Of a stretch of DNA of 64,000 bases, positions 8,420-50,492 are shown one piece after another. The notes beneath the pieces were generated by a model. It saw only the letters and a list, made by a program, of their open reading frames with translations, had not been told where the DNA came from and made no database searches. Origin of the DNA: Ianthella basta (Eukaryota > Porifera > Demospongiae > Verongiida > Ianthellidae); contig OZ025868.1 of NCBI GenBank assembly GCA_964019415.1, forward strand, positions 10,415,143 through 10,479,142. Direction: 5' to 3'. Positions within the stretch are counted from its first letter, which is position 1, and the number at the start of each line of letters is the position of its first letter. The translations under genes and the position numbers were made by a program.

Positions 8420-9040
8420 GCTTGTATTGAACAAATCCTGTGTGCATTCCTAAACTGTCTCTTGTGTCCATGTATTATGGCGCTTGAGATATACACCCTT
8501 GCTACAAATGCACTAATCTAAATAACCTAAATAATACAGGGAAGCAATGAAGGTTGGCAGCAGGATAAGTATTCAGAATGCCTATGAACTATGAGAACAG
8601 TAATTATGCTTGATTCCCAGCAGTGCCACCTTTCTTTCATGCTCTTTGCAATTTCAAAGGTCTATGGATGGTAAAGGGCCTGATTGTATCTGTTTGGACA
8701 TGATTACCATTGGTCTAGGAACATATGGGGAGTACATTCCACTGGGCTCCCCACTACTGTGATTACACTCTTAATTCCACACAAACGGGGCCTTGATCCT
8801 TGTACCATGCCCTTGCAAGTGACCTCAACTTCAGCGATCATATGATTAATCTCATACATATAGAGGTCTGGCTAGAGGATTGAATCACCTCTAGCAAGAT
8901 GACAATAAAAGAGAAAAATTCCACATTAACTATGTACCTCACATAGCAACTGCATGCACCTTGTTAACTGTGCCAAAATGCAGGTTGTACTTCGATCGCC
9001 ATAGCAACAGGATGGATGTGTACTGATAACTCACTCACAA
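8420..9040. repeat. Duplicated segment, copy 1 (paired with 11000-11488)
   Basis: Long stretches match 11000-11488, for example ATACACCCTTG.TACAAATGCAC, ATTCAGAATGCCTAT, and GCACCTT..TAACTGTGCCAA. Insertions and deletions of up to about 100 bp separate the copies. In copy 2 the segment ends at an exon 3' splice boundary of an Ig-domain exon. In copy 1 the equivalent point (ACTCACTCAC, 9029-9038) is followed directly by an HCE insertion. This is probably a local duplication of intron plus exon edge. Confidence 0.7.
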
Positions 9041-9204
9041 AACAAGTATTTCGAGTTAAAAAACTTGTGGGGCTGCCACCCCAAACTTGAAATACTTGCT
9101 TCCTTCAGTTGCAGCTCTGTCACTCACAACAGGTAGAATTGTGTCATATACCTCAGTAACCTCAGCACACATACACCACTGTCAGCAGACACATGACACA
9201 CATG

Positions 9205-9297
<93 letters not shown>

Positions 9298-10070
9298 ACA
9301 CACACACCACACACACAAGCACAGAGAAACCTCCAGCACAGACACATGACTACTTACAGCATATACATTTACAATGAGTATTCACAGAAACGTAATGTAC
9401 CAAGGAACCTACAGACGAGAGTAGCTAGCATTCTGTGATGGCAAAAGCTACGTATGTAGTTTGCTACAGCGCAGTACGCGTGGGCCAGATTCTGAAGAGC
9501 ATTTAGAAGGGCAACTGTGCGAGATAAGCTTTCCAACGCTACAGACGGTTGAAGAATGTTAGCATGTACATATCGCGGCGCTCACCAGTGTCTACGTTAC
9601 TCCTGTCATGTGTTCCAGTCGGCAGAGGAAAGTCCTCCAAGGTATGCGTGGCCATTCTCGAAGAAGGCGCGGGTGAAGTCGATGACCTGTTGGGCGCTGT
9701 CTCGAAGCTGTCTCTTTGCCTGTTGGCCACAAGTGCTGTAGGAGTCTGTTCCACGATCAGTGGCGGAAGAGAACGTCCAAATTTTTGCTAAGACGTTTAG
9801 ACGCCGGTTTTCAAAGTCCCTTGGCCTCCCACACAGTCCATTTCTGGCCAAATAAAATGGCCGACAATATAAATTCTCTATACTCAATACTACGCCCAAT
9901 ACATTCAATATAAATGTAAGCATTGACGTACAACCGTAAGTTCGCGTATTATATATATATCTATATATACAGTGCAAGTATGTATCTATCTATATATATA
10001 TCTGTAACATGAAGCCATACAAAAATGTCCATTTGAAAAAAATATAGGGGCTGCCTGTGGCAGCCCCTAA
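9041..10070 (+). mobile_element. HCE element copy A (hairpin-ended, CA-microsatellite bearing)
   Basis: The 5' end is a 55-nt hairpin: CAAGTATTTCGAGTT pairs with AACTTGAAATACTTG, enclosing a GGGG...CCCC inner stem. A conserved 0.15-kb block follows, then (CA)n at about 9209-9316, then about 0.55 kb of conserved non-coding sequence, a TATA-rich stretch, and a 3' hairpin GGGGCTGCC-TGT-GGCAGCCCC followed by TAA (10048-10070). The same order is found in copies at 14482, 25756, 34199 and 45763. There is no coding capacity and no target duplication is apparent; the target is A-rich. A Helitron/Helentron-type (HINE/DINE-like) non-autonomous element is the best fit but is not proven. Confidence 0.75.
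9209..9316. repeat. (CA)n microsatellite inside HCE copy A
   Basis: A CA dinucleotide run of about 80 uninterrupted bases plus short impure extensions. It occupies the same internal position in other HCE copies, so it is part of the element and not a secondary insertion. The poly-His/Thr and poly-Cys/Val reading frames over it are artefacts. Confidence 0.95.
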
Positions 10071-10797
10071 AAACAAGTGTGGACTGGCTGCCTCCCAGAT
10101 GAACTCAAAAGTACATCTCATTGCAAGCAGGCAAACTGCAGCAGAGTGCAAGTCAACAGAGCCATCTTCAAACCACACCAGAAGGCAGATGCAGCTATGG
10201 AGCCTCCTGACCACAGCTCATCAGGACTGTCAAACGGAGGGTCACAGCAGCCAACAACACCACATGCATGGAGAGCTGCAGACAACTTGTGGTGCAGGGC
10301 GATCTCTTCTGCCTACACCAAACTGCCCACTCTGCTCCAGTCACCAGACTCTCCTGCATGTGCTGAGCCACTGCCCGGTGGCCCTCCAGAACAGAGGGTA
10401 CAATCAGAGGCACGATGCTGTTCTGGAGCAGCTGCACCAGTTTGCTAACAGCCACGCCAACCCCGAGCAGCAAGTCACTGTGGGCCTCCCCAACCGGGAG
10501 TACTTCTTCCCTGCCTCCTTTGCCGTCACAGACAGCCGTCCAGACATGATCATCTGGAGCCAGTCCTCCATTCAGCATCAGCATCATGTACTATTTTGCC
10601 CATCATGTCACCCTTTGGACTCATGGTTGCCTTCAGTTTGCTTGGTCAACATGTTTTTTTACCCTCATCATCTGTCATCTATCATTATCACCTCCACTTG
10701 TTATTCATCATTCTATGCCACCACATGCTATTTTGACAGTGTAAAGTGCTTTTTATGCCACTTACTGATGAAGGTAGCCGATGATTGCTATTGAAAT
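10071..10797 (+). pseudogene. R2-like LINE remnant (CCHC knuckle and endonuclease start)
   Basis: The frame from about 10071 carries CPLCSSHQTLLHVLSHC, a C-X2-C-X7-H-X4-C motif, and downstream SFAVTDSRPDMIIWS. This is the arrangement of the C-terminal zinc knuckle followed by the restriction-like endonuclease of R2/NeSL-type LINEs (the RPD portion of the PD-D/ExK core). The expected distal D..K region does not follow; the frame runs on into low-conservation Ser/His-rich sequence to the stop at 10792-10794. An AATAAA lies at 10836-10841. The reverse-transcriptase part is missing, so it is 5' truncated. It starts exactly where HCE copy A ends. Confidence 0.6.
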
Positions 10798-11803: not shown

Positions 11804-12246
11804 CTGCAGACAGAAAATTAAAAATCATATCATAATTATGGGATTCAACATACAATGACTACATATAATATACTAACAGTGAAACACTAAATTACAGATA
11901 AGGTATTACCATAGTTAAAAACTGAAAAAAGGCTGACAAGAAAACTCAAACTCACTAAAGTAGTGCACATTGAAGTCTTTGCAAAGGTGTCTTACTACAA
12001 TGCACGAGATGTCTGGTTGCTTGTTTGTGTTTCATACTAATAACCCTGCTGGGTGGATAGTATGGAAAATGGTCATGTTGGTTCAGGGTCTGGAGGCCAT
12101 GTTCTCAGGGGATAGGAACGCGCCCAACAGATCATCAGCTAGACCCCACGTTGTTCGCAATAAAGGCCACCCGCCACGAAGGATATTACTCTGCTGCCTC
12201 AGACACGTACAGGAGTAAGGTAGAAGCTGGTGAACACTGTCATCTG
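11804..12246. other. No feature recognised (probable intron)
   Basis: AT-rich sequence directly upstream, on the minus strand, of the Ig exon acceptor, then a segment without coding or repeat signal. It is most simply intron sequence of the same gene. Confidence 0.35.
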
Positions 12247-12345
12247 TGTACGCTACAATTTGCTAGCATTCTATAATGTTGAAAAGATTAACGCACACAG
12301 TTAGCCTTCTAAATGCTCTTCAGAATGGCGTGCGCGTATTGTGCG
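12247..12345 (-). mobile_element. HCE internal fragment, reverse orientation
   Basis: TGTTGAAAAGATTAACGCAC to GTGCGCTAGCAAAC aligns with the reverse complement of the conserved HCE block that reads GTTTGCTACAGCGCAGTACG...AAGCTTTTCAACGCTAC in the full copies. Neither terminal hairpin is present, so this is a decayed fragment. Confidence 0.65.
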
Positions 12346-12429
12346 CTAGCAAACTACCTTTTGCCAGGACAGGACACAGGCAACTGTGGGTTCTTGTTTG
12401 CTTTGTGTATCTGCAGATATTCACTGTAA

Positions 12430-14428: not shown

Positions 14429-14481
14429 GTACTTGTATACAACACTCGTAATAAATACACATACATACATAACTAACTAAA

Positions 14482-14689
14482 CAAGTATTTCGAGTTAAAA
14501 ACTCGTGGGGCTGCCGCCCCAACTTGAAATACTTGCTGCCTTCGGTCAGCCAATCTACTCACAATAGGTAAACATGACATTGTGTCATACACCTCAGTAA
14601 CCTCAGCACACACACACACACACACACCACTGCACACACCACACACACTGCACACACCACACACACACCACATACACACACACTGCACA

Positions 14690-14754
<65 letters not shown>

Positions 14755-15523
14755 ACACACACCACACCACACATACACACAACACACATACACAAAGAAA
14801 TCTTCAGCAAAGACAGACACATGACTGCTTACAGCACATGCATTTACAGTGAGCATTTACAGAAACATAATGTACCAAGGAACCCACAGTAGCGAGAGTA
14901 GCTAGTGTTCTGTGATGGCAAAAGCTACGTACGTATGCTACAGTGCAGTACGCGTGGGCCAGGTTCTGAAGAGCATTTAGAAGGCAACACTGCGAGCTAA
15001 GCTTTTCAACGCTACAAACGGTTGAAGAATGTTAGCGTCAACATATCACGAAGCTCACCAGTTTCTAAGTTACTCCTGTCATGTGTTCCAGGCGGCGGAG
15101 TGAAGTCCTCCGAGGCGGGCGCAGCCACTATTGAAGAAGGCGCCGAGCGAAGTCTATGACCTGTTGGGCGGTGTCTCTAAGCTGTCTCTTTGCCCGTCGA
15201 CCAGACGTGCTGTAGGAGTCTGTTCCAGGATCAGAGGCGGAAGAGAACGTCCAAAGTTTCGCTAAGACGTCGTTTAGAAGCCGGTTTTCAAAGTCCTTGG
15301 CTTCGCACATGGACCACTTCCGTCTGAATAAAATGGCCGACAATATAAATTCCCTATACTCAATACTTTGCCCAATACATTCAATATAAATGTAAGCATT
15401 GACGTACAACCGTAGTTTCGCGTATTATATATATATATATATATATATATCGTTCCGTAACAAGAAGCCATACGAAAATGTCAATTTGAAAACAATATAG
15501 GGGCTGCCGCAGGCAGTCCCTAA
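14482..15523 (+). mobile_element. HCE element copy B
   Basis: A full copy with 5' hairpin (AACAAGTATTTCGAGTTAAA...), a degenerate CA tract (14610-14800), the conserved block, a (TA)n run at about 15425-15450, and the 3' hairpin GGGGCTGCCGCAGGCAGTCCC ending near 15523. Its 3' end abuts a decayed BEN-domain gene on the minus strand exactly within the conserved LAREAF region. Confidence 0.75.
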
Positions 15524-17234: not shown

Positions 17235-18003
17235 TGAATATTGCAAACCTGCAATGCCACCTTTGAAAGGTTATTAGAGTCAGCCCCAGATGAAAGGTCG
17301 CAGGCCCGCCTTGGGGTGGCACACAGAAGAGAGTCAGGGGCCTGGCTGAATGCTCTACCTCTCTCAGCCATCGGGCTTAGGTTGGATGGTGACACTATCC
17401 GGGTTGCTACGGGCCTTCGCTTGGGGGTCCCACTATGCCTCCCTCACGTGTGCCAACACTGTGGTACCAGTGTAGACAGTCTTGGTACCCACGGTCTCAG
17501 CTGTTGCAAGAGCCAGGGTCACCAACCCTGACATGCCAGTGTCAATGGTCTAATCTAAAGGCACCTGCCGTCGGCTGGGATCCCCACCCAGCTGGAACCC
17601 ACAGGGGTATGCCGATCGGACAGCAAGTGTCCGGATGGTGCCTCCATCACACCCTGGAAGCGGGGTCGCGCGTTAGTTTGGGACGTGATGTGTCCCGACA
17701 CTTTTGCCTCCTCCCATCTTGGACTGTCAGTGAGAGAGGCTGGCCCGGTGGCTTCCCAGGCAGAGCAGCACAAGAACAGGAAGTATGCAGAGCTGCTCGT
17801 GAGCCACCATTTTGTCCCCATTGCTATTGAGACCAGTGGAGTGTTTGGCCCAGAAGCTGCTGCCTTCTTCAAAGACTTGGGCCATCGACTGACAGCACAG
17901 TCAGGGGACCCATCGTCGTACACCTATCTGGTCCATACAACGAGGCAACACTGCAGCAGTGCTGGGCACGGCGAGGCCCTCCTCCCCTGCAGCAAGCAAT
18001 TGT
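17235..18003 (+). pseudogene. Retroelement polyprotein C-terminus with PD-(D/E)xK-like motif
   Basis: One frame, broken by two stops near 17530-17555, reads RRESGAWLNALPLSAIGLRL, then the Cys/His cluster CQHCGTSVDSLGTHGLSC, then (past the stops) CPDGAS...RGRALVWDVMCPDT, then HFVPIAIETSGVFGPEA and FFKDLGHRL. The PDG...VWDVxxPD pattern looks like a restriction-like endonuclease core, and this whole block is widespread in invertebrate retroelement pol C-termini. I recognise the block but am unsure of the exact clade. The reverse transcriptase is missing and the frame runs into the foldback hairpin at 17987. Confidence 0.55.
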
Positions 18004-18094
18004 AAGCTTGCCTAAGGGCATGCCATTGAATTGAGAGTGCATGGAAAGAAATTCAATGGCATGCCCTTAGGCAAGTTACAATTGCTTGCTGCAG
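17987..18094. repeat. 46-bp-arm hairpin (CTGCAGCAAGCAATTG...)
   Basis: CTGCAGCAAGCAATTGTAAG...GCCATTGAATT (17987-18032) pairs with its near-exact reverse complement ending CAATTGCTTGCTGCAG (18094), leaving a 16-17 nt loop. The same hairpin recurs at 49825-49932, and half of it at about 26490-26560. It marks the start, or the centre, of foldback-family copies. Confidence 0.8.
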
Positions 18095-19064
18095 TGTGCA
18101 TTCCAATGGCAGCGGTACAGGTTCTGACCGGCTGTAACTTGGTGGTCTTTTTCAATGACCAACTAGCGCAGATACTCTACTGGCACATGTGGTGGTGGCT
18201 ACTGTAACTTGCCCTGGTGGTCTTTTTCTATGACCAACTGACGCAGATACTCCACTGGCACAGGTGGTGGTGGCTGCGATATTGTAACTTGCACTGTGTG
18301 GTGGTGGTGGCGGTGGTGTTTTTTTCTAGAGCAATGGCGCATATACTGAATGCATGCATTGAAACTTGCACTGTGTTGTGGTGGTGGCGGTCGTTTCATC
18401 TAGGAATGCATGTGGTGGCCGTAATATTGTAACTTGCACTGTGTGGTGGTGGTAGTAGTATATGGTAGCAGCACCTGATGTGCATGGTGGTCTGTTTTCT
18501 TTCAGCTGTAGCACATAATGTACTACTCATTGCAACTTCCACTGTGGTGGTGATGGTGGTTGTATTTATCTATTGGTGGTATAGTAGCTGAATATTGTGG
18601 CTGGATAGTTGTGAGCAAGTGTACATGTGGGTGCTGTTCTGCTCCAGCATAGCAGCAAATGCCTACAAATTGGTGCCAAAAGGTGATTGTTCAAAACATT
18701 GCCTCCATTTTGTGACTAATTAAGCAATCCTGCTAATGACATGAGCAAATGGGCCATCTAACTATGCCCACTTGGATGTGTCCACCAAGTTTCATGTCTC
18801 AACGAGCCCAGTTGCATTAATATACAAAATACCACTATGCATCAATATAAATGCGCCATACATTAAGTGTTCTCCTATGTGCATTTATATTAGCATTTTG
18901 CTGGCTGCTTGTAGAAGAATAAAGACTTAATTAAAAATTCAATCTCATTTAAAAGTCTTAAAATCTCCCATACTTCAAAGCCATACCTACCACATGTTCA
19001 TGAGGGCTGCCAACCCCCTTGGGAATTATTTATTTATTTATATTATATTATTTACTCAGATTAG
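18095..19064 (+). repeat. Foldback/satellite family, copy 1
   Basis: This begins with tandem units of about 75 bp (GTAACTTGCACTGGTGGTCT, TTTTTCTATGACCAACT, GCAGATACTCTACTGGCACA, GTGGTGGTGGCTAC) at 18130-18320. A GTGGTGGTGG-rich segment, a unique-looking segment (18540-18960) and an AT-rich end TTATATTATTTACTCAGATTAG follow. Other copies lie at 22105-25755 (an inverted pair), 26488-26860 and 48896-50247. No coding capacity. The LINE at 19065 is inserted in its AT-rich end. Confidence 0.75.
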
Positions 19065-22000: not shown

Positions 22001-22104
22001 TCTATATCGTATAACTAACTACTTGCCATGCTAACATATCAGTGTATAAGTATAGGGATGACCTCCAGTATTGGAGATGTATCCATTTTGGTTATTGAAT
22101 TGAT
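19065..22104 (+). mobile_element. Full-length RTE-like LINE with target duplication
   Basis: The element has a 90-bp 5' leader, one long ORF and a 106-bp 3' end without poly-A. It is flanked by ATTATTTACTCAGATTAG (19047-19064) and ATTATTTACTTTAGATTAG (22105-22123), a near-identical 18-19 bp repeat. That sequence occurs once at the equivalent place in other satellite copies, so it is a genuine target duplication. Downstream the satellite resumes (GTGGTGTACATTGTAACTTG). A single-ORF LINE with an APE endonuclease and no poly-A fits the RTE group. Confidence 0.75.
19155..21998 (+). CDS. LINE polyprotein: APE-type endonuclease plus reverse transcriptase
   Basis: An uninterrupted 947-codon frame from an ATG. 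Residues about 15-255 form an endonuclease/exonuclease/phosphatase domain with FGCWNVRTLN, catalytic-type Glu in SEAKVRG (E48), GDMNARVG, and the closing GSDHYLV (H250). A basic linker follows. The reverse transcriptase spans about 545-830, with EQGGFRTGRGCNDQI, AFVDLEKAYD, GVRQGCTLSPWLFN and FADD (D726, D727). The C-terminal region has YGCETWTL and ends in the basic block KRPRGRPRSRWTD. All catalytic motifs are present and there is no stop, so it may be functional. Such ORFs are sometimes annotated as craniofacial development protein 2-like; that host name would be misleading here. Confidence 0.92.
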   Translation: MSAKNYDSDLVSDISRFGCWNVRTLNGREQELVAEMKKYRLEVLGVSEAKVRGNGMRMIGDTTCVYSGVQTGRAKAGVAILLSERFGRFLKEWRCVDERIVMIRLKIEGMWVSVVQVYAPTEDCSDASKDEFYLRLQETVGRVVSGDLLVVMGDMNARVGDDTSIWGEVLGRYGEEVCNENGRRLLQFCNEYNLWISNTWFPHKRIHKYTWECRGRGLRSLIDYFLVGKEARKQVMDVKAVRGAEIGSDHYLVLMKIKLKARRVKNSSQVRGRQKIKIHNLKDDRVRREYQAVIAELYEEARAGGCASGKDVELAWKELKEGIVGAATKVCGTMRGRSGQVKRTRWWNEEVKSAVQKKKVLYKRLLDTGNVEARQRYNEAKLEARKLVRKAKNDEWVQFGKELEKDAKGNQPRFWARVNGNRMTKESMTRINGKNGQVLSEGAEVIGRWKEHFEELFHEVGEPLSDTQCSEAMQEDDMGIMKEEVRNGVKRLKMRKAPGICGILPEMLKAGGEVVIEWMADVFNLVWRVGVAPGDWKNAVVVPVHKKGSRLECANYRGISLMSIVGKVFARVLNERVKMATVDKVMDEQGGFRTGRGCNDQIFAVKQIVEKTIEKDKKTYMAFVDLEKAYDNVSREKLWKVLYAYGVKGRLLRAIQALYVNGRAKVKVGEMESELFEVHRGVRQGCTLSPWLFNVFIDSVTREARRQFLREVKLSTGDVGLLLFADDMVVMAESVEGLQHNLQVMSDVLSRWELRVNWRKTKVMRIARKREECEVKIDEEVIEQVDAMKYLGVMISSDGRMEKEVEARIGGATRVIGGLNDVVLRRKELSMSTKLKVVNATVMPTLLYGCETWTLSKQQQLKVQATQMKVLRQIEGVTRLDRMRNVDIREKLRQESVLDAVKRRQEKWRVRLEEMSNERLTKKVFVGEMEGKRPRGRPRSRWTDNFK

Positions 22105-22978
22105 ATTATTTACTTTAGATTAGTGGTGTACATTGTAACTTGCACTGTATATATTATTTACTTTAAATTAGTGGTGTATATTGTAACCTGCACTGTATAA
22201 ATCAACTAGCGCAGAAACTCTATTGGCACATGTGGTGGTGGCTACTGTAACTTGCACTGGTGGTCTTTTTCTATGACCAACTGCCACAGATACTCTTCTG
22301 GCACAGGTGGTGGTGGCTGCGATATTGTAACTTGCACTGTGTGGTGGTGGTGGCGGTGGTGTTTTTTCTAGAGCAATGGTGCATATACTGAATGCATGCA
22401 TTGTAACTTGCACTGTGTGGTGGTGGTGGTGGTCATTTTCATCTAGGAATGCATGTGGTGGTCATAATATTGTAACTTGCACTGTGTGGTGGTGGTAGTA
22501 GTATGTGGTAGCAGCGCCTAATGTGGTGGTCTGTTTTCTTGCAGCTGTAGCACATAATGTACTGCTCATTGCAACTTCCACTGTGGTGGTGGTGATGGTG
22601 GTTGTATTTATCTATTGGTGGTACAGTAGCTGGATATTGTGGCTGGATAGTTGTGAGCAGGTGTGCATGTGGGTGCTGCTCTGCTCCAGCATAGCGGCAA
22701 ATGCCTACAATTGGTGTCAAAATGTGATTGTTCAAAACAACGCCTCCATTTTGTGACTAATTAAGCAATCCTGCTAATGACATGAGCAAATGGGCCATCT
22801 AACTATGTCCACTTAGTATCACAACTTAGCGATACTGGGTTGGTGGGATATGCAATGAACCTCACTTTTCTTGGCCATTTTGCGACTAATTAAGAAATCC
22901 TGCTAATGACATGAACAGTCGGATTATCTGGCTAGGTCCACCAAGAGTCATGACTGAGCGGGCCTGGCTGGTTGAATA

Positions 22979-23742
22979 GAGAGTTTTAGATTGCCATTTA
23001 CGCCTAATGTCAAACGTGAAAACGTCACTAAACGTCACTAAATATCACGTGATCCCACGTTCACGTTAAGCTCTCGCGTATCCGTGCCACGTTTTTAACG
23101 GCTAGACCCCTTGCTAGCCGTAAGAATTTTGGTCGCCGTGCTTTTTGCCCTTGCTAGCCGTAAGAATTTTGGTCGCCGCGCTTTTTGCTCTTCTTTGTTT
23201 GTTTGCCGTTCTGTGAGTTGAATTGTGTACAATAACGTCTTGTGCAGCTATTCGAATGCCATTTACGTGGGATCCGAAGTCTTTCGCAGAGTAAAACTGC
23301 GTTATATGAGAGATGGTAAGTCTTGCGCTAACTTCGTTGTTCCTAGCCTTTTTCTGTGCAGGATTTCTCACTGGATGCCTTCAATCAGGTAGCCAGTGCC
23401 TTGGCAAGATGTTGCTAATTGCCCAGCAAAAGGTTCAAGTCGTTTTCGTCGCTGTTGACTCAAAGAGTCGGGGCTGCTATTTTCGTACATGGTCTCTTCC
23501 AGACTTCCTTGGAATGGAAAGACGAATGTGTGTCACTTCTAACAGTGCAGTCTACGGCTGAACAAACCTGAGTTTTGCCTCCATTCCAACTTTTGGACCC
23601 TGTAATCTTGTCGTACGTACGTACTTCTTTACACTCCAATCTAAAGTTACTTTTCTTCCATGCCTATGTGTACGTGAACGTGTAACGTGGTGACGTCACA
23701 CGGACGTTTGAGGTTAGGCGTATACGGCAATCTAAAACTCTC
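22979..23742. mobile_element. TA-flanked MITE in left arm of the palindrome
   Basis: The ends GAGAGTTTTAGATTGCC and GGCAATCTAAAACTCTC are a perfect 17-bp inverted pair that continues with mismatches for about 30 bp, and TA lies on both sides. The matching position in the right arm (about 25140) reads TGAATATATCATACACC in complement without the insertion. The interior contains a 27-bp tandem duplication (CTTGCTAGCCGTAAGAATTTTGGTCGCCG, twice at about 23110-23180) and a possible splice donor (GATGGTAAGT) near 23315, but no transposase. TA target and short ends suggest Tc1/mariner-type mobilisation. Confidence 0.7.
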
Positions 23743-24366
23743 TAATAAATCATACACCTCACATATGTCGGCCATTTTGAGACTAATTAAGAAATCCTGC
23801 TAATAACATAGGAAGGTGGACCACTTGGACGTGTCCACCAAGTTCCACATCTCAACGAGCCCAGTTGCATTAATATACAACATACCACTATGCATCAATA
23901 TAAATGTGCCCTACATTAAGTGTTCTCCTATGTGCATTTATATTAGCATTTTGCAGGCTGCTTGTAGAAGAATGAAGACTTAATTAAAAATTCCGTCTCA
24001 TTTAAAAGTCTTAAAATCTCCCATACTTCAAAGCCATACCTACCACATGTTCATGAGGGCCGCCAACCCCCCTTGGGAGTTATTTATACAGTGCAAGTTA
24101 CAATATACACCACTAATCTATAGTAAATAATATAAATACAGTGCAAGTTACAATATACACCACTAATCTAAAGTAAATAATATAATATAATATAAATAAA
24201 TAAATAATTCCCAGGGGGTTGGCAGTCCTCATGAACATGTGCTAGGTATGGCTTTGAAGTATGGGAGATTTTAAGACTTTTAAATGAGATGGAATATTTA
24301 ATTAAGTCTTCATTCTTCTATAAGCAGCCTGCAAAATGCTAATATAAATGCACATAGGAGGACACT

Positions 24367-24978
24367 TAATGCATAGGCGTAGGAACCATGGGGGCCGTGG
24401 GGGCCATGGCCCCCCCAGATTTCACAAGGGGGGGACCAGGCCCCCATAGATGTTTAGCCCTGGCTCACCTCTGCAATCTTTGATCAGTAAATGCTATTAA
24501 ATGCTCAGGCCATCTCACCAAAGTATACAGAAAGATTCCGCAGCATTTTCGTTCGGATCTATATCCAACAAAACCTGTTGTTCAAAATTCTGGTTTAGTG
24601 GTTTGCTTGGAAGCCATTTTACTGGTTGCGCAATTGACACGTGACCTGAATATGAATATAATATCCTACCGCGCTATAATATTTGTTTGTCTCAGCAATC
24701 TCTCCTAAGTTTTCTGGAAAAGCCAGCAAAGAGAAGAAAAATCAATGCAACCAACAGGTGGCATTGCTTTTGGCATCATAGCTGTTAATGAAATGTAAAT
24801 TACTAATAGAGGAGTATGCAGATCTGTAACTGAGCTCATGGGGTTTGCACTCTCATTCCCTACTAAATTTACATAGCCTCAAAAAATTTTTCGCTCGCTT
24901 TGCTCGCGAATCTACCTCTGGTGTACCTGCTATCTTCGGCCCCCCTAGTTTTGAAAGTGTTCCTATGCCCCTGTAATG
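24367..24978. mobile_element. hAT-like MITE with 5-bp TAATG duplication in right arm of the palindrome
   Basis: The element (24372-24973, 602 bp) starts CATAGGCGTAGGAACC and ends GTTCCTATGCCCCTG, an imperfect inverted pair. TAATG flanks both sides (24367-24371 and 24974-24978). Related uninterrupted sequence at 49065-49085 reads ACACTTAATGTATGG, with TAATG once, confirming insertion and duplication. CA/TG-ended CAGGGGC-type termini are typical of hAT elements, although most duplicate 8 bp. Near the left end is a strong GGGGGCC/GGCCCCC palindrome. Confidence 0.75.
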
Positions 24979-25755
24979 TATGGGGCATTTATATTGATGC
25001 ATAGTGGTATCTTGTATATTAATGCAAATGGGCTTGTTGAGATGTGAAACTTGGTGGACACGTTCAGTCCACCTTCTTATGTTATTAGCAGGATTTCTTT
25101 ATTAGTCTCACAATGGCCAACATATGTGAGGTGTATGATATATTCAATCAGCTAGGCCCACTCAGTCATGACACTTGGTGGACCTAGCCAGATAATCCGA
25201 CTGTTTATGTCATTAACAGGATTTCTTAATTAGTCGCAAAATGGCCGAGAAAAGTGAGGTTCATTGCATATCCCACCAACCCAGTCCCGCAAAGTAGTGA
25301 TACTAGGTGGACATAGTTAGATGGCCCATTTGCTCATGTCATTAGCAGGATTGCTTAATTAGTCACAAAATGGAGGCGTTGTTTTGAACAATCACATTTT
25401 GACACCAATTGTAGGCATTTGCCGCTATGCTGGAGCAGAGCAGCACCCACATATACACTTGCTCACAACTATTCAGCCACAATATCCAGCTACTGTACCA
25501 CCAATAGATAAATACAACCACCATCACCACCACCACAGTGGAAGTTGTAATGAGTAGTATATTATGTGCTAGAGCTGCAAGAAAACAGACCACCACATTA
25601 GGCGCTGCTACCACATACTACTACCACCACAACACAGTGCAAGCTACAATATTACGGCCACCATATGCATTCCTAGATGGAAATGACTGCCACCACCACC
25701 GCCACACAGTGCAAATTACAATGCATACATTCAGTATATGCACCATTGCTCTAGA

Positions 25756-25881
25756 AACAAGTATTTCGAGTTAAAAACTCGTGGGGCTGCCGCCCAACTG
25801 GAAATACTTGCTCCCTTCGGTCGCAGCTCTATCACTCACAATAGATAAACATGACATTCACACCACTATCACCAGACACGA

Positions 25882-25954
<73 letters not shown>

Positions 25955-26490
25955 GCACACATGCACACACATGCACACACGCACACACATGCACAGAGAA
26001 ATCTCCAGCAACAACAGACACATGACTGCTTATATCACATGCATTTACAATGAGTAATTACAGACACATAATGTACCAAGGAACCTACAGTCGCCAGAGT
26101 AGCTAGTGGTCTGTGATGGCAAAAGCTACGTACGTTTGCTACAGCGCAGTACGCGTGGGCCAGGTTCTGAAGAGCATTCAGAAGGGCAACCGTGTGAGTT
26201 AAGCTTTTCAACGCTACAAATGGTTGAAGAATGTTAGGGTCTATATATCACGGCGTTCACCAGTTTCTACGTTGCTCCTGTCATGTGTTCCAGGCGGCGG
26301 AGTGAAGTCCTCCGAGGCGGGCGCGGCCATTATCGAAGAAGGCGTGGGGCGACGTCGATGACCTGTTGGGCGCTGTCTCGAAGCTGTGTCTTTGCCCGTC
26401 GACCAGAAGTGCTGTAGGGGTCTGTTCCAGGATCAGAGGCGGAAGAAAATGTCCAAAGTTCGCTAAGACGTCGTTTAGAAGCTGGTTTTC
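25756..26490 (+). mobile_element. HCE element copy C, 3' truncated
   Basis: 5' hairpin, CA tract (25885-25995) and conserved block are present. The copy breaks off at GCTGGTTTTC (26490) and passes into the centre of the foldback hairpin (CATGCCATTGAATTGAGAG). It inserted into foldback sequence at CTCTAGAA, which is uninterrupted at about 22360 and 50190. The missing 3' end indicates a later deletion. Confidence 0.75.
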
Positions 26491-26840
26491 CATGCCATTG
26501 AATTGAGAGTGCATGGGAAGAAATTCAATGGCATGCCCTTAGGCAAGTTATAAATGCTTGCTGCAGCGTGCATTCCAATGGCAGAGGTGCAGGTTCTGAC
26601 CGGCTGTAACTTGCATGTGCTGGCCCGGAGCCACTGTAACTTGCACTGGTGGTCTTTTTCAATGACCAACTAGCGCAGATACTCTACTGGCACATGTGGT
26701 GGTGGCTACTGTAACTTGCACTGGTGGTCTTTTTCTATGACCAACTGACGCAGATACTCTACTGGCACAGGTGGTGGTATTTATTTATTTATTTATTTAT
26801 ATTATTTACTTTAGATTAGTGGTGTATATTGTAACTTGCA

Positions 26841-26887
<47 letters not shown>

Positions 26888-26892
26888 ATACT
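26491..26892 (+). repeat. Foldback-family fragment and (TA)n
   Basis: Half of the CTGCAGCAAGC hairpin (to about 26565) is followed by three 75-bp satellite units (26605-26780), the AT-rich end TTTATATTATTTACTTTAGATTAGTGGTGTATATTGTAACTTG, and a (TA)n tract at 26846-26892. Confidence 0.7.
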
Positions 26893-27130
26893 ATATTGCT
26901 GAAAATATTGCAAACTACCGCATAGAAACTGCAGACTACTGTACGTACTGTCTTTGTGGGTACCAGATCACCGCTCCATTACGATACTACGGGTACGCAT
27001 ACAGATACGGAATGGGTATGAATGTGGACGTAATCGAAGCTATGTATGATGTTGATACGGGTCAAGCTACAGGCATAGTATAACAACGTACATGCTGTAG
27101 TACAGAGTGCAATAGAAGCGCTAACGTTTT

Positions 27131-27996
27131 GGGGCGCCAAAGGCGCCCCTATATTGTTTTCAGATTTAGGTATTAGTATGGCTTAATGTTTGTATATATA
27201 TATTTGTCATTTTGCAAATGGCGGCGCTCATGTCATTCTTACAAAGCTTAAAATCATCTCTAATGGCGTTTCGCCGTATCTTAATCGAACGAAATGTGTT
27301 CAAGAAGATGTGTTAATAGAGTGATACTCATAAAAAGCCTAACGAAAGACTCTTCTGCGAGACATGGCTACAATTATCACTGACGGACATCGTAAAATGG
27401 CTGCACTCGACTCTCTCTGTTTGATAGGCTCATAATCATCTTTCTTCGTATTTCTCCGTGTATCCAAAGAGGGCAAAGTCTTTCTTGAACACATTTAAGT
27501 AATTGTGTTGTAGTAGAGAGCTTATCTAGCTATTCTCCTGCGAGGTACAGCCCCAAATACAACAGAGATCAAACCACCCGTTGGCCCGTGAGAGACAAAT
27601 TGAATCATGGTATTACCACTTAGGGTAGCGTTTTTAGCCAGCCCACTCCTCCTCCAGGCGCAAAGCAACATGTATATCCTCATTCAGAATGTTATGTAGA
27701 TCAAAAAGCATCAGCAAAGCATTTTGACAGTTTGGTAGCTAGGGGTGCTTTCACTGGATGACTTCCTGGTCTGGGGACTTGAAACTTTGCAACCCCAGCA
27801 GTCTATGGCATAGTGATGTGTAGTGCATTGCAAAAAGTAATTGCCCCCTTTCATAGTGAAGTATCTTTCAGACCAGCAGCAATGCTGCATACCCAACTGT
27901 CAGAACTATTGAACATACACAGGGAAGTTGTTAGCAAGTAGTTCCGGTTCAGGGGCGCCCCGGCGCCCCACGAGTTTTTAACTTGAAATACTTGTT
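27131..27996 (-). mobile_element. HCE-related element F: same ends, different interior
   Basis: On the minus strand it starts AACAAGTATTTCAAGTTAAA with the inner hairpin GGGGCGCCGGGGCGCCCC (27950-27996), and ends AAACAATATAGGGGCGCC-TTT-GGCGCCCC (27131-27160). Both ends are clearly of the HCE type, but the 0.75-kb interior has no CA tract and no similarity to the HCE core. An interior frame (27711-27896, minus) is Cys/His-rich (QHCCWSERYF, CWGCKVSS) but unrecognised. Shared ends with exchanged interiors are common in rolling-circle elements. Confidence 0.65.
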
Positions 27997-30171: not shown

Positions 30172-31421
30172 CTAGTTCAACACATCCAATTGCTTAAGCA
30201 ATGAGCTGCATCTCTTTTCAAACTGGTCAACTGTAATGGCACCCTTCTCAAACATTGCATGCGCCAACTGTAAATTCTGCAGCAGCTTTCCTTGAAGGTC
30301 GATCCTCCTTTCTGGGGACACTGCAGTGTGTACATGTTTAGTTGGAGTGCAACTTGGGTCATCAGATGTGGGTTTCTGCGCTGCAGTCACACTGTTGGCT
30401 AGTTTCGTGGAAGGCCATTGTCATTGCTTCAGTACCTTGTCTTGGATTTTTGACCCTGTCTTGTGGCTGCTTCCAAATTGAGCCAAGTGGGGGTTCCTCG
30501 AGGCTGGTGTGCTTTTGCTGACAATTACTTCAGCCCATAATTTGCATTGCATTTTGGTGTACTTGTCACCATGCTTCTTCTTCAACTCATTGGCAATGCC
30601 GTCAACGATTTCCGCTCTGAATTCTACAGAATTCACTGCCTTCTTTCGCTTGGCAACAGGAGGTGCATCGTCCTCGTTCTCCTCCTCTTCCTCCTTGTTA
30701 CCATAGCATCACAAATACCTGCCTTCTTTAGCAACCTGGCACAATTTCTCTTTAAACTCATCATTCCTTGGAAAGCTCATCCATGTATTGCCTTCATAGT
30801 AGCCAACTTCAAAGTTTAGATCAAAATGCACAACGTTCTTTCCAACCTTGTCAAATATCACCTTGCGCAGCTCTTTCTCACTGTCTACACTTGTGAGAAC
30901 ATCAATCTGAAAAACCTTATACTCCCCCTTCTTAGCTGGATTAATCATTTTTAAAGTACTGTATGCCCATTAGATGAAGATGCACCGTCACTGTGGCTTA
31001 CTTGCAAAGTAGATGGCGCCGCACCGTGGGTCCCTTGTGAAGATGGCACCGCAACTTGTGAAGATGGCACCGCACCGCGGGTCCCTTGTGAAGATGGCAC
31101 CGCAACTTGTGAAGATGGCGTCGCACCGTGGGTCCCTTGTGAAGATGGTGCCATAACTTGCGAAGATGGCGCTGCACCGTGGGTCCCTTGTGAAGATGGT
31201 GCCGCAACGTGGGTCCCTTGTGAAGATGGTGCCGCAACGTGGGTCCCTTGTGCAGATGACGCCGCACCGTGGGTCCCTTGTGAATATGGCGCCGCGCCGT
31301 GGGTCCCTTGTGAAGATGGTGCCACAACTTGTGAAGATGACACCGTATGGGCCACTTGCGAAGATGGCGCTGCTTGGTTGTTGGTGGTTGTGGTAACGTT
31401 AATTACTGGGGGTGTCGACAT
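30172..31421 (-). CDS. Accessory gene of the IS630-type transposon, probably multi-exon
   Basis: Minus-strand coding segments run in one direction across several frames, implying introns. ATG at 31421 starts MSTPPVINVTTTTNNQ and an SSQGTHGAA repeat region (31050-31400). Then come IDVLTSVDSEKELRKVIFDK and FEVGYYEGNTWMSFP (30709-30948). A KEEEEENEDDAPPVAKRKK acidic-to-basic stretch follows, with RAEIVDGIANELKKKHGDKY and MQCKLWAEVIVSKSTP (30421-30690). The last segment, RIDLQGKLLQNLQLAHAMFE and ITVDQFEKRCSSLLKQLD (30172-30330), is a short helical pair. This kind of C-terminus recurs, as I remember it, in uncharacterised sponge proteins. The function is unknown; a nuclear, DNA-binding accessory role is inference. 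Exact splice sites are not determined. Confidence 0.55.
31020..31365. repeat. Coding minisatellite in the accessory gene
   Basis: About ten units of 30 or 51 bp built from CCGTGGGTCCCTTGTGAAGATGG-like sequence encode SSQGTHGAAP repeats on the minus strand. Unit sizes are multiples of three, so the frame is kept, which argues that the gene was under coding constraint when the array expanded. Confidence 0.75.
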
Positions 31422-33251: not shown

Positions 33252-34198
33252 GAGGACCTTTCCGACATCGACATCAAGGAATTTCTAGAGTCTTAAACAC
33301 TTTGTGCTGCCCTTCCTAGTCTAGTGCTTGCCTTGCTGTACTTGACCTTTGTAACTGCTGATTGAACTTGTGTTTACTTTGACAGCCATATATGGAGAAT
33401 GCGTGGGAAGGTGGGAATGTGTTCCCGCCTTAAAGCCATATATGGAGGTGTTAAAGGCGCTTACATGGTTACTGCAGTGCTGGTAACCCTACCTGCACAC
33501 CGGTGCCTTTGATGTACGACGTCATCATGCAATAAATTATATATACCCCAGCTAGCCAGGTTATAAATTTACCAGGAGCTCTGGGCTCTTATACTAAGCC
33601 AATCCGCTTCATGTCCAAAGTTTACTTTACTTTAAAATTGTTGTTCATTTTGTGTGTATGCTATGTTCATGTAAGAAAGGAGTAGTGGATGTGAAATCAT
33701 TAAGCAAGAAATGCCGGGAAGTGGCCATTTCTCTACTGAAACAACATGTTTCCGTTGCTGCACAGTACTGCAACAAGCCAAAGCGTTTCCATGCAAGCAG
33801 GGCATTCTCGATTCACACTTACAGTGCCTGCCTCGTCTCCATCTTGTAGCTAGGGCTCAGTAAAGTCTGGCGTATGTAGCTACTTACTGCGAACCTAAAT
33901 GTTCAGAGACCCAAGACGTCGAAATGTCCTTCTTGAAGTCAAAATAGCCGCACGTATATTTACTACGTTCCTCTGGCCGTGGCGAGAACAAGAGCTGCAA
34001 GCCCTTCTACAAAAGAATCCTTCTGAGCTCTTGCGCATTCCTTCTGATCCGCTACATGCTTGGCAACAAAATGTTCAAGGGTTCAGCGAATCGACTACGT
34101 CTTTCTTAACGTTTGAAAACAATATGCCAATTATAGTACACCAAGCCAGCACATATGCTTCTTATTTCACTCAGCCTCAGGTGCCCTTGTGCATTGTA
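33252..34198. other. Unassigned sequence
   Basis: Contains a duplicated GCCATATATGGAG motif (33390 and 33434) and two short plus frames (33652-33849, 33899-34204) without recognisable domains. The second ends where HCE copy D begins. Confidence 0.4.
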
Positions 34199-34405
34199 AA
34201 ATAAGTATTTCGAGTTAAAAAACTCATGGGGCGTCGGGGCGTCCCTGAACTACTTGCCTAATTGTTATTTTAAGGTAACTAATTGATCACGCCATTTAGC
34301 ATCACCTCAGCATTAGTAAGGTGACCCCAGGATGCAAGAAACAGAAGTCTAAGGAAGGTCAAAAGGATGAATAGGCTAAGCAATAGAGGCACACACACCA
34401 CACAC

Positions 34406-34496
<91 letters not shown>

Positions 34497-34946
34497 ACAC
34501 ACGCACATACACAGAGAAATCTCCAGCACAGACAGACACATGACTGCTTACAATACATGCATTTACAGTGAGTACAGAAACACAATGTACCAAGGAACCC
34601 ACAGTCGTGAGAGTAGCTAGTGTTCTGTGATAGCAAAAGCTACGTACGCTGTTTGCTACAGCGCAGTACACGTGGGCCAGGTTCTGAAGAGCATTTTGAA
34701 GGGCAACTGTAAGCGCTAAGCTTTTCAACACTACAGACGGCTGAAACATGTTAGCGTGTACATATCAAGGCGCTCACCAGTTTCTACGTTACTCCTGTCA
34801 TGTGTTCTAGGCGGCTAAGTGAAGTCCTCCACGGCAGGCGTGGCCATTATCGAAGAAGGCTCAGGGTGAAGTCGATGAACTGTTGGGTGCTGTCTCGAAG
34901 CTGTTACTTTGCCTGCCGACCAGAAGTCTGTTCCATGATTAGTGGC
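34199..34946 (+). mobile_element. HCE element copy D, mixed 5' end, 3' truncated
   Basis: The 5' hairpin reads AAGTATTTCGAGTTAAAAAA with the inner stem GGGGCGTCGGGGCGTCCC, the form closest to element F. The downstream part (CA tract 34391-34505 and conserved block) is standard HCE. An unusual segment (34260-34385) separates the two. It ends inside the conserved block at GATTAGTGGC, near 34946. Confidence 0.65.
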
Positions 34947-34959
34947 AACCACTCCGAGT

Positions 34960-35345
34960 GCAGGTAGAGTGCTTGTGCTATATATACACCACCACCACTA
35001 CCACCGCACAGTGCAAGTTGCAATCTGTGCATGCAGTAAATGCGCCAGTACTTATATGAACAAGGCCACCAGTGCAAGTTGCCAAGAGTAACCACCACAC
35101 GTGCAAGTAGAGTGTTTGCGCTAGTTGATGGAAGGAATAACATTACCAGTGCATGTTGCTGAAGGTCAGGGGACCGGGCACCAGCATCAATTGGCATGCA
35201 GTGGGAGACCACTATGAATGCAAGTACAGTGTTGGTGCTAGTCGAATGGCACAAGTTGGAGCAGGATGCAGCAACAGGTATGCAACTTGCACTTGGGCAG
35301 AACACGGTTCACATGGTGCCCAAGTGCAAGTTGCACTGGTCACGC
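34960..35345. repeat. Degenerate CAAGTTGC/CAAGTTAC satellite
   Basis: GTGCAAGTTGC or GTGCAAGTAG recurs every 40-75 bp with CCACCA-rich and GTTGGTGCTAGT segments, so it is a diverged relative of the 75-bp units of the foldback family. The inverted sequences CAACTTGCACTTGGGC and GCCCAAGTGCAAGTTGC at 35280-35337 form a small hairpin. Confidence 0.6.
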
Positions 35346-45762: not shown

Positions 45763-46640
45763 AACAAGTATTTCGAGTTAAAAAACTCGTGGGGCTGTCG
45801 CCCCAACTTGAAATACTTGCTCCCTTTGGTCGCTGCTCTGTCACTCATGATTGGTAACACATGACATTGTGTCATACACCTCAGTGACAGTACACATACA
45901 CCACTAGTCACCAGACATAGCTACATGACACACACACACACACACACACACACTGGCCACACACACATCACACACAACACACACACCACACATGCACAGA
46001 GAAATCTCCAGCAAAGACAGACACATGACTGCTTATGGCACATGCATTTACCGTAAATATTCACAGAAATATAATGTACCAAGGAACCCACAGTCGCCAG
46101 AGTAGCTAGTGGTCTGTGATGGCAAAAGCTACGTACGTTTGCTACAGTGCAGTACGCGTGGGCCAGGCTCTGAAGAGCATTCAGAAGGGCAACCGTGCAA
46201 GTTAAGCTTTTCAACGCTACAAACAGTTGAAGAATGTTAGCGTCTACATATCACGGCGTTCACCAGTTTCTACGTTGCTCCTGTCATGTGTTCCAGACGG
46301 CGGAGTGAAGTCCTCTGAGGCGGGCGCGGCCATTATCGAAGAAGGCGCGGGGTGAAGTCGATGACCTGTTGGGCGGTGTCTCGAAGCTGTGTCTTTGCCC
46401 ATCGACCAGAAGTGCTGTAGAGGTCTGTTCCAGGATCAGAGGCGGAAGAAAATGTCCAAAGTTCGCTAAGACGTCGTTTAGAAGCCGGTTTTTAAAGTCC
46501 CTTGGCCTCGCACACGGTCCACTTCCGGCCGAATAAAATGGCCGACAATATAAATTCCCTATACCCAATACTTCACCCAATACATTCAATATAAATGTAA
46601 GCATTGACATACAACCGTAGGTTGGCGTATTATATATATA
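45763..46640 (+). mobile_element. HCE element copy E, 3' hairpin missing
   Basis: Standard 5' hairpin with GGGGCTGTCGCCCC inner stem, short CA tract (45929-45999), and the conserved block through CAATATAAATGTAAGCATTG. At the TATA-rich stretch it passes into CAGTGCAAGTTACAATATAC foldback/satellite sequence and the 3' hairpin is lost. Confidence 0.75.
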
Positions 46641-47621: not shown

Positions 47622-47679
47622 GCTAGACCACTACCATATAGGGTCACTATACCATATCCGTCCACCACCTCCACACCCA

Positions 47680-48895
47680 AACTTCACAGTGCAAGTAACA
47701 ATGGGACTACCACATGTGATAGTAGAGTAAATGTGGTAGTTGGAGGTAGAAAAAGACTACCAGTGCAAGTAACAGAGGGTTAGAACCACATATGCCAATA
47801 GAGTAAATGCACTAGCTGGTGGCAGAATTGACCAACAGCACAAGTAGCAGAGGGTTAGGACCACATGTAACTAGCTATATTATATCTCTATAGTATGCAA
47901 TTATATGTAGTTTAGTTCTCAAGGACTGTAGAACTTCTGGTATATACGTGTGTAGCTATACGTTGTATGTTGTACTTTGAAGAATTGATCATTTTTCTGA
48001 GATTAGAAAAAATGTATAATACCACCGCCACATACAGCCACCACCACCACCCCCACCACACAGTGCAAGTAACAATGGGACCACCACATGTGGCAGTAGA
48101 GTAAATGTGGTAGTTGGAGATAGAAAAAGACCACCAGTGCAAGTAACAGAGTGCAGAACCACGTGTGCCAGTAGAGTGAATGCACTAGTTGGTGGCAGAA
48201 AAGACCACCAGCACAAGTAACAAAGCCCATTTAATGTCTATAATAGAAGAAGTACCAAATGCTGCTGCCCTTGTGCAAGTAACAATTGCTTCCTGCATCG
48301 GGCACTCCAATGGTGCTCGTGCTTGTCCTGACCCTCTGTAACTTGCGCTGGTAGTCTTTTCCACCACCAAGTAATTGGGTGGGGTTTGGGGGTGCTGGTT
48401 GGCTAGAGTACAAGGTACAAGGTTCAAGAGCCAGAGATTATGGGATGTCAATGGATCGCACCCAGGCCATGGCGGCAGGATTTTCAGTGACTGCACCCCC
48501 TAACAACAAACATTGCCCACTGAACACAAATTTAAACTGATTCACTCTGACTGACGAAATTGCTTGTGTATAAGTCTGTGTCTATTGTGGGCTGCTCGCT
48601 AAAGGGATTCCCCTAATGCATGCTAATAACATTACTGATTCCAATTCCGATTACCATTTGTTTACTCTGAGGGCACATGTGGTCCTGACCCTTTGTTACT
48701 TGTGCTGGTGGTCTTTTCTGCCACCAACTAGTGCATTCACTCTACTGGCACACGTGGTTCTGCACTCTGTTACTTGCACTGGTGGTCTTTTTCTATCTCC
48801 AACTACCACATTTACTCTACTGCCACATGTGGTGGTCCCATTGTTACTTGCACTGTGTGGTGGTGGTGGTGGTGGTGGTTGTACGTGGCTGTGGT
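47680..48895. repeat. Foldback satellite variant with near-perfect 205-bp inverted arms
   Basis: The left arm 48019-48225 and right arm 48691-48894 are inverted copies with very few differences (for example ATGTGGCAGTAGAGTAAATG and CATTTACTCTACTGCCACAT), separated by a 465-bp spacer. Each arm contains two to three approximately 75-bp units (CAGTGCAAGTAACA, GTAGAGTRAATG, GTTGGWGRYAGAAAA). Additional units precede it at 47688-47860. High arm identity suggests recent formation or ongoing conversion. Non-coding. Confidence 0.8.
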
Positions 48896-50247
48896 ATAAA
48901 TAAATAAATAATTCCCAGGAGGGTTGGCGGCCCTCATGAACATATGCTAAGTATGGCTTTGAAGTATGGGAGATTTGAAGACTTTTAAATGAGACGGAAT
49001 TTTTAATTAAGTCTTCATTCTTCTACAAGCAGCCTGCAAAATGCTAATATAAATGCACATAGGAGAACACTTAATGTATGGTGCATTTATATTGATGCAT
49101 TGTGGTATCTTGTATGTTAATGCAACTCGGCTCGTTGAGACATGAAACTTGGTGTTCATGTCATTAGCAGGATTTCTTAATTAGTCACAAAATGCCCGAG
49201 AAAAGCGAGGTTCAATGCATATCCCACCTACCCGGCCCCGCTAAGTCTTGATACTAAGTGGACATAGTTAGATGGCCCATTTGCTCATGTCATTAGCAGG
49301 ATTGCTTAATTAGTCACAAAATGGAGGCAATGTTTTGAACAATCACATTTTGGCACCAATTTGTAGGCATTTGCTGCTATGCTGGAGCAGAGCAGCACCC
49401 ACATATACACTTGCTCACAACTATCCAGCCACAATATTCAGCTACTATACCACCAATAGATAAATACAACCACCATCACCACCACAGCGGAAGTTGCAAT
49501 GAGTAGTATATTATGTGCTACAGCTGAAAGAAAACAGACCACCATGCACATCAGGTGCTGCTACCATACACTACTACCACCACCACACAGTGCAAGTTAC
49601 AATATCGCAGCCACCACCACCTGTGCCAGTAGAGTATCTGCGTCAGTTGGTCATAGAAAAAGACCACTAGTGCAAGTTACAGTAGCCACCACCACATGTG
49701 CCAGTAGAGTATCTGTGCTAGTTGTTCATTGAAAAAGACCACCAGTGCAAGTTACAGTGGCTCCGGGACAGCACATGCAAGTTACAGCCGGTCAGAACCT
49801 GCACCGCTGCCATTGGAATGCACACTGCAGCAAGCAATTGTAACTTGCCTAAGGGCATGCCATTGAATTTCTTCCCATGCACTCTCAATTCAATGGCATG
49901 CCCTTAGGCAAGCTTACAATTGCTTGCTGCAGCGTGCATTCCAATGGCAGCGGTGCAGGTTCTGACCGGCTGTAACTTGCATGTGCTGGCCCGGAGCCAC
50001 TGTAACTTGCACTGGTGGTCTTTTTCAATGACCAACTAGCGCAGATACTCTACTGGCACATGTGGTGGTGGCTACTGTAACTTGCACTAGTGGTCTTTTT
50101 CTATGACCAACTGACGCAGATACTCTACTGGCACAGGTGGTGGTGGCTGCAATATTGTAACTTGCACTGTGTGGTGGTGGTGGCGTTTTTTTCTAGAGCA
50201 ATGGCGGATATACTGAATGCATGCATTGAAACTTGCACAGTGTGGTG
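48896..50247. repeat. Foldback family, inverted pair around the central hairpin
   Basis: The left half (48896-49825, reverse orientation) and right half (49932-50247, forward) carry the same 75-bp units and GTGGTGGTGG segment on either side of the hairpin at 49825-49932. The left half extends through the full family sequence to AATAAATAATTCCCAGG.GGGTTGG. The right half is short because HCE 3' sequence follows at about 50248. Confidence 0.75.
49825..49932. repeat. Central hairpin of the foldback family, second copy
   Basis: Same sequence as 17987-18094 with the arms exchanged: CTGCAGCAAGCAATTGTAAC at left and CAATTGCTTGCTGCAG at right, loop TCTTCCCATGCACTCTC. Confidence 0.8.
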
Positions 50248-50332
50248 GTATATACATATATATATCCGTAACATGAAGCCATATGAAAACGTCAATTTAA
50301 AACCAATATAGGGGCTACCTGTGGCAGCCCCT
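50248..50332 (+). mobile_element. HCE 3' end fragment
   Basis: TATATATCCGTAACATGAAG, then AACCAATATAGGGGCTACC-TGT-GGCAGCCCCTAA, matches the last 80 bp of HCE copies A and B, including the 3' hairpin with one unpaired position. The rest of the element is missing. Confidence 0.75.
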
Positions 50333-50492
50333 AAAAAATCTGTAATATTCAAAATCGTTACATTTCCCTTAAGTTTGTCATCTTACCAGTAGTCTGTGTC
50401 CAAGATATTACAAGAGCAATGCATGAGGTCAATTAAGCTTCATTCTAGGTAGGTAACTACCTAAAAGTAAAGAAAGCAAAGATAGAACTTAC

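Follow-up and report, generated by a model that had tools for sequence, protein, structure and literature searches.

The hairpin-ended elements (HCE) that recur in a 64,000-nt stretch of the Ianthella basta genome (the window, C1:10415143-10479142 of a 209-Mb, 96-contig assembly) are a new family of an already known kind, very probably non-autonomous Helitron2/Helentron elements (HINEs), and lie in the orientation opposite to that assumed in a preliminary description made from the letters alone. They have a characteristic end anatomy, sharp boundaries in an A/T target, empty counterpart sites, ends of matching type and a CA-bearing interior with no long ORF; the one unexpected feature of this otherwise known kind is a terminal palindrome that flips. 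The preliminary description had guessed at a Helentron-associated (HINE-like) identity, and the guess gained support once the element was turned round, because the hairpin first read as 3′ is the 5′ palindromic subTIR and the hairpin region first read as 5′ is the 3′ subTIR with its stem-loop. Below, 5′ and 3′ refer to transposon orientation, and reader-5′ and reader-3′ to the earlier one. One DNA strand of such an element would be peeled off as a single-stranded or circular intermediate, by a presumed enzyme in a presumed rolling-circle step, and the intermediate would be inserted into T-rich sites without target duplication.

HCE repeats are a genuine dispersed family. The reader-5′ end motif had 631 exact matches in the genome (reversed control, 0) and a looser form had 786 (control, 0), and the reader-3′ palindrome with perfect arms had 271 matches for the A type and 310 for the B type (controls, 0 in both cases). 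A DNA search of the genome returned at least 76 matches, a lower bound with 40 of 1844 candidates scored. The loci followed up were selected and are not a random sample, L001-L030 having been picked by likeness to copy 1 and L031-L060 being the first matches on C1. Copy 1 had the architecture proposed for it, with hairpins, CA tract, core, TA-rich stretch and reader-3′ hairpin at 9043-10068 (Table 1), and the further copies and fragments were recovered by BLAST in the window, at 14472-15523, 45763-46640, 25755-26490 and 34390-34946 and at 12120-12357 and 50256-50334, respectively. Five large copies had been said to share the full architecture; both ends are kept only in those at 9043 and 14482 (minus strand), and the others are partial. 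Matches for copies 3 (25758) and 5 (45765) end at 26490 and 46640, short of the reader-3′ hairpin, and copy 4, made up of the BLAST core at 34390-34946 and a piece resembling an end at 34198-34232, likewise stops matching copy 1 before that hairpin. The earlier list was incomplete, as a whole family B copy (27129-27994) had been overlooked. Elsewhere on C1, two right ends that share a 12-nt flank lie 1045 bp from each other (L041 and L042, C1:1816233-1817307), which suggests a tandem copy. The window also holds another set of long inverted and direct repeats (17987-19042, 22103-26896 and 47674-50197; motif ACTTGCACTG, 75-bp tandem units) and a 30/51-bp tandem array at 31011-31339 (AGATGGCGCCGCACCGTGGGTCCCTTGTGA).

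Table 1. HCE copies in the window and the parts of copy 1 (strand gives the proposed transposon orientation)
Feature	Position	Strand	Description
Family A copy 1	9043..10068	-	CAAG...CCCCT on + strand; both ends present
3′ terminal stem-loop region (copy 1)	9043..9068	-	Terminal CAAGTATTT/AAATACTTG; long inverted repeat with 9084-9098
3′ subTIR (copy 1)	9069..9077	-	GGGGCTGCC on +, GGCAGCCCC in transposon orientation; inverted relative to 5′ subTIR
CA microsatellite (copy 1)	9211..9317	.	GT in transposon orientation; carried by family A
Conserved non-coding core (copy 1)	9399..9930	.	Ends approximate; median pairwise identity of 30 cores 96.2%
TA-rich stretch (copy 1)	9948..9998	.	Microsatellite just inside 5′ subTIR
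5′ palindromic subTIR (copy 1)	10045..10069	-	TAGGGGCTGCC TGT GGCAGCCCCTA; A/T run of insertion site outward
Old core fragment	12120..12357	+ (BLAST match on minus strand)	71% identical
Family A copy 2	14482..15521	-	Both ends present; 5′ palindrome loop flipped (GCA)
Family A copy 3	25758..26490	-	5′ part (transposon orientation) lost
Complete family B copy	27129..27994	+	Sister family without CA tract, in opposite orientation; ends at C1:10443107 and C1:10442273
Copy 4	34198..34977	-	Family-B-like right end, CA tract, A-like core; left end lost
Family A copy 5	45765..46640	-	Left end (transposon orientation) lost
Terminal fragment with 5′ palindrome	50256..50334	-	GGGGCTACC TGT GGCAGCCCC; found by BLAST

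In transposon orientation, the element has AGGGGCTGCC/GGCAGCCCC at one side and ACTTG at the other, and its reverse-complemented ends read TTTTTAGGGGCTGCC-GCA-GGCAGCCCCTATATTG...GGGGCGGCAGCCCC.ACGAGTTTTTAACTCGAAATACTTG-TT, with GCA at the loop position. As in HINEs, a palindromic subTIR lies a few nucleotides from the 5′ terminus, found with perfect arms at the 271 A-type and 310 B-type sites, and a typical A-type 5′ end folds at -13.3 kcal/mol (DNA parameters). The same subTIR recurs inverted near the 3′ terminus, as GGCAGCCCC in family A, at a distance of about 25 nt (26-27 nt where more A are present), and as GGCGCCCC in family B; its type matched that of the 5′ end in 37/37 complete copies. 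A short stem-loop just inside the 3′ terminus is present as well: CGAGTT-TTT-AACTCG, about 9 nt from the 3′ end, is contained in most listed forms of the 631-site motif and is typical of the copies, copy 1 having one of the CGAGTT..AACTCG arms mutated, and the minimum-energy fold at this end favours a longer enclosing stem over the short one. Hairpins at both ends, which the preliminary description regarded as unusual, are in fact a published Helitron2 trait. A canonical Helitron1 (5′ TC, 3′ CTRR plus hairpin, insertion between A and T) was considered and rejected, as the ends TTTTTAGGGG and ACTTG(TT) and the A/T-run target do not fit. Near the 5′ end, a run of at least four TA/AT units was found in the last 160 bases of 28/32 A and 4/5 B complete copies. 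The positions 9021-10090 held no long ORF, only short overlapping ones, the longest that falls fully inside the element having 123 aa, which lends no support to a coding core; a comparison of 4 loci (14,307 bases) with Rfam yielded 0 matches at the gathering score.

Boundaries were sharp and coincided among copies; the preliminary description had named boundaries that fail to coincide as an observation against the family. At 60 distinct reader-5′ ends (L001-L060 and the window), the base before CAAG was A in 60/60 and the next one out was A in 59/60, and beyond these two the flanks were mixed. Of 39 distinct reader-3′ ends, 33 had T directly after GCCCC, five had A and one had C; the two positions that follow were A in 39/39, and exactly five A came after the optional T at 27/39. 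The T-rich HINE target, with at least TT on both sides, is thus found in 59/60 and 39/39 flanks; the two extra A could belong to the element or to a duplication. In the 37 complete copies, the exact direct repeats on either side of the element measured 1 nt in one, 2 nt in 19, 3 nt in 8, 4 nt in 6 and 5 nt in 3, lengths that follow from the A runs at the insertion sites, and no target duplication longer than the A run was found in 37/37. Y1-type single-stranded transposons (IS200/IS605-like elements and replitrons) also recognise hairpins at both ends. A non-autonomous element of that type would suit the hairpins near both ends and the absence of a long target duplication, but the combination of a palindromic 5′ subTIR, an inverted 3′ subTIR, a separate 3′ stem-loop and a TT target matches what the available passages on Helitron2 and HINEs describe, and a Y1 origin is very unlikely.

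Empty sites of the form CAGCAG-AAAAA-GTATAG were found at L017:3325-3535, L030:1229-1435 and L003:2538-2660 (with GCACAG), the copy of this host repeat at L017:3446-3751 reading AATAA. Occupied sites read CAGCAG-AA[element]AAAAA, and the same site holds a family A element in L030 and a family B element in L037. A further site, in L019, has AA+AAAAA when occupied vs ACCAA in a paralogue; the junction alignment of L019/L021 is unclean, and the pair was excluded from the empty-site count. An A copy nested in the end loop of another A copy (L010/L012) is flanked by 4+5 A, and its empty counterparts have 7 A (L013 and L019) or 6 A (the window copy at 45763 and L047). L010, L012 and L046 have an HCE inserted in the T/A-rich loop that belongs to the end hairpin of a further copy; the element thus offers its own target. 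The net gain beyond CAAG...CCCCT is two bases (three if the host of the nested copy had 6 A), and these extra A are either T's of the element's own or a 2-bp duplication. The latter would be expected if HCE were a cut-and-paste MITE that duplicates a 2-bp AA/TT target, and the gain of two A at empty sites would speak for this; published Helentrons carry their own T's at their boundaries, according to passages of PMC4067079, and give the same gain. The preliminary description had counted ordinary TIRs with target duplications against its proposal, and a 2-bp duplication is possible; the extreme ends, CAAGTATTTC vs TTTTTAGGGG, are not inverted repeats of each other and the only flanking repeats are A runs of 1-5 nt, which leaves a MITE extremely unlikely and the HINE reading preferred.

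Two families can be told apart, A with GGGGCTGCC palindromes and a CA tract and B with GGGGCGCC palindromes and no CA tract. Their interiors differ, and 67 bp can be aligned at each end, with 82% and 88% identity (L037 vs the A copy in L026). A script recognised 37 complete copies, of which 32 had A-type and 5 had B-type palindromes at both ends and 0 were mixed; this set lacks L060, which is B at both ends and carries an additional C, and copies whose ends are altered in other ways. Beyond it, a mixed case was found in the truncated copy 4, the end of which reads GGGGCGTC... at 34198, family-B-like and ahead of an A-like core; the stretch 34198-34513, with its B-like right end, CA tract and A-like core, may be chimeric or represent a third subfamily. 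In the first 13.47 Mb of C1, 20/25 B pairs under 2 kb spanned 773-864 bp between motif starts, and 12 A pairs spanned 818-1372 bp, with one at 2000. At about bases 803-1205 of the B copy in L037 there is an insert that ends in GCCCGCCGAAGGCGGGCGCCCTGCTAG and resembles a canonical Helitron1 3′ end; pieces related to it occur in L062, L066, L069, L070 and L082.

A run of at least 10 CA units was present in 32/32 complete A copies and 0/5 complete B copies, which bears out the earlier claim that the family disperses CA tracts and makes it a concrete case of a CA microsatellite carried to many sites. The accompanying claim, that the family explains much of the CA content of the window, held for the number of arrays and failed for their length: TRF found 9 CA/TG arrays (1763 bp) in the window, and HCE copies hold 5/9 of the arrays and 591 bp, one third of the bases. 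The three longest CA arrays outside HCE (35787, 39785 and 47416) matched copy 1 by BLAST only in the CA tract. HCE spreads CA tracts, yet does not account for most CA bases of the window.

The 5′ terminal palindrome occurs in both loop orientations. Among 33 A-type ends, the 3-nt loop was TGC in 23, GCA in 5, TGT in 2, ACA in 1 and GAG in 2 (with a shorter arm). Genome-wide, flipped loops (GCA plus ACA) were found at 71/271 A-type ends with perfect arms, and 27 of these 271 ends comprised 18 TGC, 4 TGT, 3 GCA, 1 ACA and 1 GGT. In family B, the flipped loop GAA was found at 18/310 ends, the loops of the other 292 being uncounted; L037, L054, L055 and L060 have TTC, and the window copy has TTT. 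The two loop orientations are represented among the palindromes at 10045-10069 and 15493-15521 in the window and those of L022, L025, L030 and other copies. Opposite loops were carried by copies with identical 536-537-bp cores (L022 vs L030; L025 vs L017 and vs the first copy of L002), and the outer flanks of these pairs differ, marking separate insertions. On a tree of 30 cores (0.373 changes per site in total; bootstrap values unsettled), five separate changes are required to account for the five flipped copies; ends that lack a full core, namely L050 (ACA) and the two with GAG, are absent from it. A step from TGC to GCA takes three base changes or one inversion, and the inverted pairs TGC/GCA, TGT/ACA and, in family B, TTC/GAA were all seen. 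Because the first two pairs could share one inversion together with a point change, flip origins are put at at least two (A and B). At the other end, the 6-bp palindrome had 0 flipped genome sites vs 631, and the inner hairpin loop was flipped in none of the A copies (TGCC 37, TGCT 1 and TGTC 1) and none of the B copies (AG 11 and GG 1, a number too small to tell); flipping was therefore seen at one end only.

Flips could arise in transposition, if a hairpin intermediate can be nicked or copied in two alternative ways, in ordinary replication, by template switching at a perfect palindrome, or by conversion between two source lineages. We tentatively consider it possible that the tip flips at a high rate, the folded hairpin being copied or nicked in either of two ways in each round of transposition. 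If so, tip orientation would be a trace left by a hairpin intermediate, in analogy with parvovirus flip and flop, and such an intermediate would also explain that both palindrome arms change together between A and B. It is rather unlikely that the flips go back to two old source lineages, one per loop orientation, between which gene conversion has exchanged tips. Gene conversion is common among near-identical copies in general, and the tree covers only 30 of several hundred copies, but the flipped tips are five separate single copies on that tree, opposite tips are found between separate insertions with identical cores and different flanks, and all three inverted pairs occur, with at least two origins across A and B. 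Parvovirus terminal hairpins occur in flip and flop orientations, and the HCE tip palindrome is like them in having two loop orientations; unlike them, HCE flips at one end only and has a 3-nt loop, with no evidence of hairpin-capped ends. A limited literature search that included passages of PMC4067079 and PMC5148889 returned no report of flipped tips, and the passages on Helentron transposition in these two sources do not state the fate of the 5′ end; identical-core copies with opposite tips could be a countable trace of that fate at each jump.

An autonomous partner would be expected to share these ends and to encode a Rep-helicase, together with an endonuclease if it is a Helentron. The preliminary description had suggested looking for a Rep/helicase partner with the same ends, and the outcome was partial: Rep and PIF1 are present in the genome (49 profile matches for Rep, PF14214, and 45 for PIF1, PF05970) and HCE 5′ ends lie upstream of some Rep loci, and no gene bracketed by both ends was found. 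On C1 and C2, 3/16 Rep loci had an HCE-type 5′ end at most 10 kb upstream in the predicted orientation. The opposite orientation gave 0 loci upstream and 1 downstream, and the predicted orientation gave 0 downstream. In 20,000 circular shifts (157 listed 5′-type ends on C1 and C2, a few sites listed twice, vs the 16 Rep loci), the mean was 0.37 loci (P = 0.005 for at least 3), and among loci with both Rep and PIF1, 2/5 had an upstream 5′ end (P = 0.006; C1:11120025, with a PIF1 match 10.6 kb away, was not counted as such), P values that are at most suggestive, two loci having been spotted before the test and four configurations and one distance having been examined. The two qualifying Rep-PIF1 loci, C1:10514876 and C2:8993644, have broken frames and are decayed candidates for the autonomous partner; the third qualifying Rep locus, C2:7604605, had no PIF1 match nearby. 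Downstream of C1:10514876, the nearest 25 kb held no right end, and around C2:8993644 the CAAGTT variant of the right end, the only variant listed completely, was absent.

No convincing HCE end was found in 20 Rep loci or in the roughly 1.5 kb that flank them on either side, the one weak match (5 mismatches) being in L075, and the parts read of the flanks of two Rep loci with long ORFs (L076 on C4 and L078 on C14) held no HCE ends. On C1, with right ends listed up to 13.47 Mb, 0/63 end pairs spanned a Rep match; the long pairs (7-18 kb, 11/63), which contain none, are by a rough estimate about as frequent as chance pairing. The right end at C1:7514025, 15 kb from the Rep locus L079, was dropped, its orientation being opposite to that expected. 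In L083 (C4:6797000-6799626), the L076 Rep-helicase frame contains GDVEYNPGP in frame, upstream of the Rep domain, which we take to be a 2A-like motif.

As a HINE family HCE is ordinary, one more rolling-circle element spreading short repeats. It resembles HINE-Mo of mites and Cg_HINE of oyster, as described in passages of PMC4067079 and PMC7492417, in having a palindromic subTIR, or a subTIR plus a complementary inverted repeat, near the 5′ end and a palindrome with an inverted subTIR at the 3′ end, in its T-rich target, with TT or more on either side, in lacking coding capacity and in carrying internal microsatellites. In the mite HINEs, passages of PMC4067079 give distances of 2-4 nt (5′ terminus) and 38-60 nt (3′ terminus) for the palindromic subTIRs and of 8-35 nt from the 3′ terminus for a palindrome, with T-rich targets, at least two T at each end of an insertion and no evidence of target site modification; the 3′ subTIR of HCE, in contrast, is closer to the terminus, at about 25 nt. 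In PMC7492417, the left flank of HINEs is described as holding a microsatellite together with the 5′ subTIR, whereas HCE has its long CA/GT tract towards the 3′ half, plus the short TA-rich stretch by the 5′ subTIR, and, unlike those HINEs, family A has no satellite-like central repeats that we could see. The likeness to DINE-1/INE-1 of Drosophila, by the passages in PMC4067079, is one of HINE-type architecture with a microsatellite, by description and not by core sequence. With the Helitron2 elements of Fusarium (FoHeli1/2), as characterised in passages of PMC5148889, HCE shares hairpins at both termini, the 5′ one with a 3-nt loop, and an asymmetric terminal inverted repeat that in turn belongs to a hairpin; FoHeli1/2 are autonomous and insert between TNAT and T, whereas HCE has no long ORF and inserts in A/T runs.
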